The translations under genes and the position numbers were made by a program. From positions 1 to 64,000 of the forward strand of contig CALWTQ010000004.1 in NCBI GenBank assembly GCA_944384505.1: DNA of 64,000 nucleotides, written 5' to 3'. Below, piece after piece: positions 25,004 through 53,219 of the stretch. The notes beneath the pieces were generated by a model. That model did no database searches. It saw only the letters and a list, made by a program, of their open reading frames with translations, and had not been told where the DNA came from. Positions within the stretch are counted from its first letter, which is position 1. Every line of letters starts with the position of its first letter. The DNA comes from an uncultured Mediterraneibacter sp. Its GTDB lineage: Bacteria; Bacillota; Clostridia; Lachnospirales; Lachnospiraceae.

Positions 25004-25060
25004 ACAAATCCCCCCTGTTTTCGGACGTTTTGCAAAAGAACGTTAGTGAACTTTATAGCC
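25004..25060 (+). repeat. Terminal fragment of the palindromic repeat family
   Basis: AAATCCCCCCTGTTTTCGG, GACGTTTTGCA and TTAGTGAACTTTATAG match the right end of the module at 43936-44272 in order and spacing. Only this end is present. A -10-like TATAAT at 25097-25102 follows and may serve murE, though no good -35 box was found. Confidence 0.75.
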
Positions 25061-43502: not shown

Positions 43503-43512
43503 TCAAAAGTTC

Positions 43513-43863
43513 AGCTATAAAGTTCAATAACACTTTCCGGCAAAATATGTCCGGAAGCGGAGCGAATGTTTTGCAGTGCGTATTCTGTGAAAAGGAGACA
43601 GCCGTGCGATGTTCCGTTCCAGAATCTGGAAAATCTAACAGGCCGAAGAGCTGTTTAAGGACAAAGCAGCACGGGGAGCAACTCGCTTCGCTCAGACAAG
43701 TCTCCCCGCACTGCTTAACAACATCTCTTCGCCCTCAAGATTTTCAGCAGATTCTTCCAAAGTCACATCTCCCGGCTGTCTCCTTCCCCCAGAAAGCATA
43801 CTCAAATCGTCCGCTCCGCTTCCTGCGCATTCCCAGACGGAAGTGTTATTGACTTAATAAGCT
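43513..43863 (+). repeat. Long palindromic repeat module 1
   Basis: A gene-free imperfect palindrome of 351 bp. The ends are AGCTATAAAGTTCAATAACA and GTTATTGACTTAATAAGCT. Inside, GGAAGCGGAGCGAATG faces ATCGTCCGCTCCGCTTCC; GACAGCCG faces CGGCTGTC; GAAAATCT faces AGATTTTC; CGAAGAG faces CTCTTCG. The apex stem GCACGGGGAG / CTCCCCGCACTGC carries the loop CAACTCGCTTCGCTCAGACA. It is homologous, in reverse orientation, to 236-584. Odd short reading frames across it are not gene-like. Confidence 0.85.
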
Positions 43864-43935
43864 GCAAAGCGCAGTTGGCGCGGCTTGAGGGCTTTTCGCT
43901 GCGAAAGTCTTCCGGCCACGCCTGCTTCTTTTGAC
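43864..43935 (+). repeat. GC-rich hairpin spacer between modules
   Basis: Contains AAGCGCAGTTGGCGCGGCTTG and GCGAAAGTCTTCCGGCC and can fold into a hairpin. It is the same spacer as 165-235 in reverse orientation. Confidence 0.75.
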
Positions 43936-44272
43936 AGCTATAAATTCATTAACTTCCGGCTTGAAAAGCCCAGAAAACAGCCCTATTTCGAGAAAGATTC
44001 TGCAGGGATGGAGGACGGCGATGGGCGCCTTCGGAAGGGGATTAGTGAAACTCGAAGTTCCGGTTACGGATGTTGGGACAGACGGAGAGATTTGTCTGAG
44101 CGAAGCGAGTTGCTCTCCGTCTGTCCCTGCTTTTAATCCGTGGCGGGGACTTCCTAGTTTCCCTTATCCTCTGGAGCGAAGCCCGGAGCCGTCCTCCATC
44201 CCCGCAGAATACGTCTCAGAAATCCCCTGTTTTCGGACGTTTTGCATCCAGACATTAGTGAACTTTATAGCT
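43936..44272 (+). repeat. Long palindromic repeat module 2
   Basis: A 337-bp imperfect palindrome with ends AGCTATAAATTCATTAAC and TTAGTGAACTTTATAGCT. GCAGGGATGGAGGACGGC faces GCCGTCCTCCATCCCCGC; CCAGAAAACAG faces CTGTTTTCGG. The apex GACAGACGGAGAG / CTCTCCGTCTGTC is a perfect 13-bp stem holding TTTGTCTGAGCGAAGCGAG. The apex orientation is opposite to module 1. The flank from 44273 to 44370 holds nothing recognised before the next gene. Confidence 0.85.
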
Positions 44273-44370
44273 GCCAGGCAGAATCTTTCATTGCCTGAAA
44301 TCCGGGTTTTTGATATAGTATTAAAGGACAGATGAAAGGCAGAGAGAATCTTGCTAAGGAGGATTACGAT

Positions 44371-53063: not shown

Positions 53064-53090
53064 TAGCTATTTAGTGCACGACCACTTTCC
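53064..53090 (+). repeat. Short end fragment of a palindromic module
   Basis: AGCTATTTAGTGC and ACTTTCCG resemble the left end of the module at 43513. It abuts the small complete copy that follows. Confidence 0.5.
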
Positions 53091-53093
53091 GCC

Positions 53094-53219
53094 AGCTATA
53101 TATTCGTTAACTTCCGGCATGAAAAAACCAGAAAACAGCCCCATCCCCGCAGAATATGATTTTGAAATAGTCTCTGTTTTCGGATGTTTTGCATTCGGAT
53201 GTTAATGATCTAAATAGCT
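53094..53219 (+). repeat. Internally deleted, MITE-like palindromic element
   Basis: A 126-bp element whose left part (AGCTATATATTCGTTAACTT, CCAGAAAACAGCCC) is joined directly to a right part (CATCCCCGCAGAATA, CTGTTTTCGGATGTTTTGCA, TTAATGATCTAAATAGCT). Both ends match module 43936-44272, but about 210 internal bases including the apex are missing. The rest of the gene-free region 52996-53381 is AT-rich with no feature seen. Confidence 0.8.

Follow-up and report, generated by a model that had tools for sequence, protein, structure and literature searches.

What is a 760-bp composite of two long palindromes at positions 43513–44272 of a Mediterraneibacter genome, and does it behave as a mobile element or as an RNA? 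In an earlier note on the window (by which we mean the whole 64-kb stretch of DNA analysed) it was described as two modules of about 340–350 bp, each pairing with itself, around a 72-bp hairpin and with no transposase or gene-like frame, and a non-autonomous mobile element, a long hairpin RNA and a chromosome-structure site were offered as explanations.

Anatomy of the element

The borders given previously are correct to within one base and the division into modules and linker holds (351, 72 and 337 bp), as does the expectation of more pairing than in shuffled sequence, which is present on both strands (folding energy z −14.7 for the plus and −17.1 for the minus strand, 20 shuffles per strand). 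The features are listed here; the model scores of modules A and B come from a covariance model that has the window's own modules among its 14 sequences, and 'entries' are the 58 paired-end copies described in the next section.

43512–44273, no strand: whole composite element (AGCTATA...TATAGCT plus outer C/G, the C/G being present at each end in 56 of 58 entries)
43513–43863, minus: module A, 351-bp imperfect palindrome (model match 43618–43758, minus, 90.8 bits)
43680–43697, minus: apical loop of module A, GTCTGAGCGAAGCGAGTT
43864–43935, no strand: 72-bp GC-rich hairpin linker joining the 5' ends of modules A and B
43936–44272, plus: module B, 337-bp imperfect palindrome (model match 44034–44172, plus, 88.2 bits)
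44094–44111, plus: apical loop of module B, GTCTGAGCGAAGCGAGTT
43513–43531, plus: left terminal inverted repeat, AGCTATAAAGTTCAATAAC
44254–44272, minus: right terminal inverted repeat, one mismatch to the end pattern
64–584, minus: second copy, inverted, module B cut to about 100 bp (model match 342–483, plus)
25012–25059, plus: solo right end, a remnant
53065–53219, plus: 155-bp internal-deletion derivative with both ends kept

As the loop-sense strand is minus in module A and plus in module B, the sense 3' ends of the two modules are the left and right ends of the element respectively. The base just outside the left end is C, and that outside the right end is G, in 56 of the 58 entries in each case. 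The recurrence of the arrangement at 64–235–584 that had been noticed before is genuine, being an inverted copy with a truncated module B, and the solo end at 25012–25059 and the derivative at 53065–53219 are further traces in the same window. On one side the element is flanked by lgt and an 87-aa minus-strand frame, the DNA of which is conserved in relatives, and on the other by a gene that has no Pfam match and, beyond it, a PTS EIIC gene. The two longest ORFs within the element (101 and 134 aa) have no Pfam match, in keeping with the absence of a transposase or gene-like frame reported before; the Pfam scan covered these two only, the third ORF being 83 aa.

Copies in the genome and sites without the element

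The genome is a 3.95-Mb draft in 141 contigs, of which the stretches that were read make up 6.9%. The 19-base end motif occurs exactly 280 times in it (139 forward and 141 reverse; the reversed control gave 0), so that the intact ends equal about 140 copies' worth and, at 760 bp each, an estimated 2.7% or so of the assembly. All 40 candidates scored, out of 339, match the element at 81–100% identity (81–94% for the 39 besides the window's own), which disposes of the possibility, left open at the outset, that there are no genomic copies beyond this window. Pairing of ends yielded 46 full-length entries (spacing 740–780 bp) and 12 variants of 155–1431 bp, giving 58 entries in which loci L006 and L115 each figure twice. 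Several of the shorter variants retain both ends and lack inner parts, hairpin tips included. The median pairwise identity of copies is 83.9% (median difference 16%) among 45 aligned full-length entries from 44 loci (L006_1486 was taken out and L115 is still present twice), and the closest distinct pair, 98.3% identical, lies on different contigs (L109 and L110). The element also bears on assembly: among the matches listed, an element end lies within 800 bp of the contig start in 18 of the 34 first contigs, with the rest of the copy toward the contig edge. An extra, slightly decayed end motif was seen about 14–17 bp outside six copies (L006, L109, L111, L115, L124 and L054:14789), which would fit insertion of a new copy into an old end.

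The exact end motif was found in three of 58 genomes of the genus (the window's own, G005 and G021), a DNA search with the element found relatives in 13 of 61 genomes, all 13 belonging to the window's genus, and among 397 genomes of the family five had matches, three of these in other genera and weak. The stretches that match the window's two flanks are 79 bp apart in the relatives G010 and G068 compared with 870 bp in the window, and at a convergent gap occupied by a copy elsewhere (L055:837) G010 has 17 bp and G068 has 23 bp; these comparisons rest on matching sites in relatives and are not base-exact. The dispersed copies with fixed ends, the element-free matching sites and the lack of recognised coding content support the earlier suggestion of a non-autonomous mobile element. 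Our preferred reading, to which we would give a probability of about 0.6, is that the element is a non-autonomous mobile repeat of giant size, resembling a REPIN, and that it works as a folded single strand.

The hairpin family and its conserved fold

Of 299 family genomes searched, 14 (one per genus, the window's genome included) contain the loop of both modules, RYCTGAGCGAAGCGARTY, and none contains the reversed control. When loci from the 13 other genomes were folded, 21 of 22 formed a hairpin around the loop, the remaining one being cut by a contig end, and by self-alignment of 20 loci the palindromes in other genera are 184–535 bp long. A recurrent plan could be read from the listed helices of 18 loci and the two window modules: proceeding outward, the loop is followed by a short stem with a two-base 3' bulge, a stem of about 16 bp, an asymmetric internal loop that is longer on its 3' side (often GCTTTTA), a stem of about 12 bp, a small internal loop and stems with CTTAG. 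Stem letters differ between loci that share the plan, and some loci deviate from it. Loci found through the loop share it by construction, so its invariance among them is no evidence; stems and bulges did not enter into that search.

A covariance model, as had been proposed in the earlier note, was built from 14 sequences. At E 0.05 it matched 93 times in 68 sources, the majority of which had been picked for holding the hairpin family; the 608 kb surrounding the EIIC gene at 80 loci gave only two matches, both in Mediterraneibacter records. Locus L151 gave no match. In the wider order at least 11 of 146 genomes have matches, in five families (f1, f2, f4, f21 and f24), which is probably a lower bound because no more than 22 candidates were scored per genome and the filters were strict. 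By eye, each of the 15 loci read from the other four families has some variant of the loop, which in three of them is interrupted by an inserted stem. Two observations were made in passing. Genomes G573 and G339, of different genera, share 2717 bp at 99.3% identity around the hairpin (L287 and L289), reflecting either a recent transfer or a mixed bin. In G083 (family f2, a single contig of 4.7 Mb) 18 of 22 scored candidates, out of 925, match the model, and this complete genome may hold many copies.

The stems show compensating changes. In an alignment of 14 sequences, made without a structure model, kept from 20 for their similar helix lengths and read against the structure of one of them, double-sided changes are present in 42 of 47 pairs, and the double-changed cells number 137 compared with 58.1 (sd 5.9) in shuffles and 54–115 when partners are slid. 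The alignment of the 93 matches fitted to the model, which leans to the structure, contains 1267 such cells versus 365. Within the window's genome 50 of 208 pairs covary compared with 4–8 when slid. RNAalifold on all 20 aligned sequences recovered only eight pairs, seven of them with double-sided changes.

A strand-specific signal was obtained from wobble pairs, counted after the hairpin arms had been aligned by a wobble-blind scheme. On the loop-sense strand of 61 modules, taken from the 93 model matches, there are 137 G-U compared with 32 C-A (48 modules lean to G-U, four to C-A and nine tie), and without the window's genome the figures are 101 and 28 in 46 modules (35 modules versus four). 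The bias is weak in modules from the order search (25 versus 12; eight modules versus five), a set of 20 that remained from 23 loci after three without a readable loop were dropped and of which 18 come from other families and two from the window's own. A pooled count that ignored module orientation (68 G-U and 75 C-A) gave no bias and was replaced by the oriented one. The two modules of the composite lie on opposite strands and each has its G-U excess on its own sense strand (49 versus 25 for A and 37 versus 20 for B, these figures coming from related copies in one genome that are not independent). This pattern would not arise from a mutation bias that follows a single direction of replication or transcription. 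We take it that one strand folds under constraint, as RNA or as single-stranded DNA; folded single-stranded DNA could leave the same trace of covariation and G-U bias.

The orientation of modules is also regular. Among distinct pairs of neighbouring model matches no more than 1.3 kb apart, 22 of 23 are head to head; one of these has a weak second match (L285) and one lies in another genus (L300). The exception (L297) has two same-strand copies in tandem, 1.1 kb apart. For relatives with a single module, 19 rows versus five have the sense 3' end toward the abutting stop codon (one-sided p 0.003 if rows are independent), from 46 modules examined (L148 was skipped) of which 21 loci had a stop within 40 bp and supplied 24 rows, three loci yielding one row of each kind; with frames of at least 200 aa the count is 14 versus three.

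Transcription signals and known RNAs

The covariation and strand-specific wobble bias are what would be expected if the modules were genes of a genuine non-coding RNA family, with transcription from the 5' side of each giving a hairpin RNA of about 300 nt that has a cellular role, and had multiplied because this RNA is useful or selfish, and the loop common to several genera and the convergent orientation with abutting genes, as for separate transcription units, point the same way. Against this, sigma-70-like promoters are not in excess: their mean best score upstream of single modules (27 of them) is 7.9, compared with 8.2, 8.0 and 7.9 in three controls. T-runs downstream are not in excess either (five versus eight); a 28th module had been dropped because its loop was unreadable. 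A home-made scan for canonical intrinsic terminators found none in 41 of 46 full entries on the plus strand and 42 of 46 on the minus strand, and no hairpin with a U-tract lies within the window's element. Well over 100 copies in a single genome are also unlike a regulatory RNA. The long hairpin RNA of the earlier note is therefore supported in part, by the covariation and G-U bias but with neither a promoter signal above control nor a canonical terminator, and we consider an RNA gene family unlikely.

Searches with the 4227 families of Rfam 15 found none at gathering score in the window's element, which had two sub-threshold microRNA matches (E 0.08 and 0.77), nor any at the hairpins of 16 further loci, where a sub-threshold microRNA match fell on the L149 hairpin and two other known RNAs lay close to two of the loci. 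One of the neighbours seen was a TwoAYGGAY RNA (RF01731, 103 bits) at L290:1643–1808 in genome G199, about 125 bp from the loop hairpin. The 'skipping-rope' RNA, considered as a candidate, was absent from the Rfam matches and no relevant paper was found, so it was dropped.

Placement at gene ends

For 41 entries with a gene (frame of at least 110 aa) reading toward the element and both sides known, the stop codon lies within 17 bp of the element in 33, compared with 9.3 expected for uniform position in the same residual intergenic space (32 of 40 when counted by loci with L115 taken once); eight of the 41 are not near a stop. Nine of the 90 side rows have a frame that continues past the border and meets its stop codon in the end of the element itself. 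The window's own copy scored 409 bp from the lgt stop, and if the 87-aa frame is a gene that copy likewise has divergent neighbours, as 10 of 54 entries do. A similar placement was seen in Clostridium sp. Marseille-P3244, which has five composites of 655–740 bp with different ends (AAATCTGAGTTTG): on nine of their ten sides a frame of at least 90 aa enters the element or stops no more than 1 bp away. The covariance model matches one half of each, and the one that was read, L183, carries a different tip on its other half.

Such placement raises the question of whether the long hairpins are a transcription-end device that replaces terminators or stabilizes mRNA 3' ends and has spread mainly by selection and recombination. 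The orthologous gap L055:837 contains, by eye, terminator-like hairpins in some relatives (L161, L162), the 17- or 23-bp gaps already mentioned in others and another long palindrome (L148, which has no covariance-model match) in a further case, and at a second gene end G068 carries the palindrome L149, a model match of 43.6 bits; together with the 33 of 41 entries near a stop, these substitutions at the same gene ends are consistent with such a device. However, most copies have no U-tract, the relative G017 has no terminator to replace at the second L055 site, and 10 of 54 entries are found between divergent genes; we regard such a device as an improbable explanation.

Search for a mobiliser and a target

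No target-site duplication of 5 bp or more was present outside the ends of any of the 58 entries. There is a weak and roughly symmetric flank preference (ARCAGTTC before and GAACTGYT after the element), but a palindromic target derived from it was rejected, as per-copy flank complementarity is at chance and the genome has no occurrence of AGTTCAGCTGAACT, even when one mismatch is allowed. The idea of reading frames running across the joined flanks was dropped when models disagreed.

No transposase with the element's ends was found among the 58 paired entries, which lie in stretches amounting to about 7% of the genome. The 1431-bp variant (L054), considered as an autonomous partner, proved to be a copy with an IS200-like element (L054:15200–15880; Y1_Tnp, Pfam E 7.5e-40) inserted beside the linker, and this insertion is the sole Y1 transposase seen in the stretches read. 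The unpaired ends L120 and L121, considered in the same way, are short remnants.

Bacterial MITEs are short, non-coding, present in many copies and bounded by terminal inverted repeats, and the element is like them in being non-coding and multicopy with terminal inverted repeats; it differs in that no target-site duplication of 5 bp or more was seen and in that each half is a long structured palindrome with covariation across genera. If the element were an ordinary MITE derived from a cut-and-paste insertion sequence, with unusually long palindromic ends whose conserved structure is a by-product of arm-to-arm correction, the terminal inverted repeats, fixed ends and internal-deletion derivatives would be explained, and a 4-bp duplication might be concealed by the terminal AGCT, which is itself palindromic, but such correction should yield perfect, strand-symmetric palindromes, and as the bulges recur while stem letters differ between genera and the wobbles are strand-biased we think this the least probable of the explanations considered.

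Relation to known repeats

Among the known systems closest to the element are REP sequences of the GTAG and CGTC superfamilies and their inverted dimers. As characterized in PMC3733652, REPs are hairpins of 20–40 bp, found predominantly in Proteobacteria, with a GTAG or CGTC motif at one end; convergent ones lie less than 20 bp from the 3' ends of the flanking ORFs, REP ends can supply stop codons, inverted dimers have spacers mostly of 20–100 bp that are sometimes structured, and RAYT transposases are hypothesised to mobilise REPs. Judged by PMC3733652, REPs, REPINs and BIMEs are like the element in being dispersed extragenic palindromes that form inverted dimers, often with a structured spacer, and in having convergent and unidirectional copies less than 20 bp from gene 3' ends, for which they can supply the stop codon. 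The element is an inverted dimer with a spacer, as the 22 of 23 divergent module pairs show, and its placement at gene 3' ends (33 of 41 entries) agrees with that of REPs. Its size does not: the two modules, at 351 and 337 bp, and the 184–535-bp palindromes at 20 loci of other genera are far outside the 20–40-bp range, the modules (about 340 bp) and the 760-bp unit making it about ten times longer than the REPs of that account (PMC3733652). It also lacks the GTAG or CGTC foot; its own foot, read from the listed ends, is (C)AGCTAT. A further difference is that the part shared throughout its family is the apical loop plus bulges, and the hairpin family spans the window's family and four others of the same order. 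We therefore say that the element works like a REPIN but do not file it as one, because REPs are 20–40 bp long and carry GTAG or CGTC.

The element resembles the structured RNAs of Rfam in its covarying stems, shared loop and strand specificity and differs in that no Rfam 15 model reached gathering score in the window or at the 16 further loci. With the attC sites of integrons the likeness is confined to placement behind stop codons and conservation of structure over sequence. Searches of openly licensed full-text papers brought up nothing that was recognised as the element. It would seem to be an undescribed and much enlarged relative of the small REP repeats. The family to which it belongs is about ten times their size, and in it the plan of loop and bulges recurs across families of Clostridia while the stem letters turn over.

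Proposed mode of spread

In the scheme that we favour, the mobile unit would be two long hairpin modules set head to head around a structured spacer. Its working form would be a folded single strand, RNA or DNA, carrying the loop TGTCTGAGCGAAGCGAGTT, as the covariation and strand-specific G-U bias suggest, with the loop and bulges as the probable recognition features for a protein. An enzyme reading this fold would copy the unit in trans, in the way hypothesised for RAYT transposases and REPs (PMC3733652), and new copies would settle mostly just behind the stop codons of genes. The sense 3' ends point outward in the composite, and in single-module relatives the sense 3' end tends to lie toward the neighbouring stop, which is a statistical bias. 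After insertion the transcript of the neighbouring gene would end at, or run into, a hairpin of about 350 nt, which may then take over 3'-end formation for that gene.

More tentatively, the modules may belong to an undescribed, order-wide class of structure-defined elements in Clostridia, each a hairpin of 200–400 nt with a fixed apical loop. Machinery dedicated to them would recognise the fold, in RNA or in single-stranded DNA, and place copies at gene 3' ends, and in some species the hairpins would have become locked head to head and present in more than 100 copies (the window's species above all those examined); we regard this extension as quite possible, if short of an even chance. The hairpin family offers a clean system for studying which factor reads the fold, by what route copies are made and why they end up behind stop codons.

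Loops and modules in viral records

The whole element had no match at E 1e-5 in phage and plasmid records, and among viral contigs there was one match to an end without the rest of the element. The loop itself occurs in a shared short context in three viral contigs of one metagenome in IMG/VR (L277:271–290, L278:1176–1195 and L279:211–230), in one of them 27 bp behind a phage integrase gene, and might there serve for attachment or binding. No match to the covariance model at E 0.05 was obtained in these three contigs. Of seven further loop matches in viral contigs only L306 and L308 have model matches, both weak (28.6 and 29 bits). A phage-deposited record from human faeces (Bacteriophage sp., MT837089.1; L312:1444–1581) carries a full module, which scores 92.5 bits.
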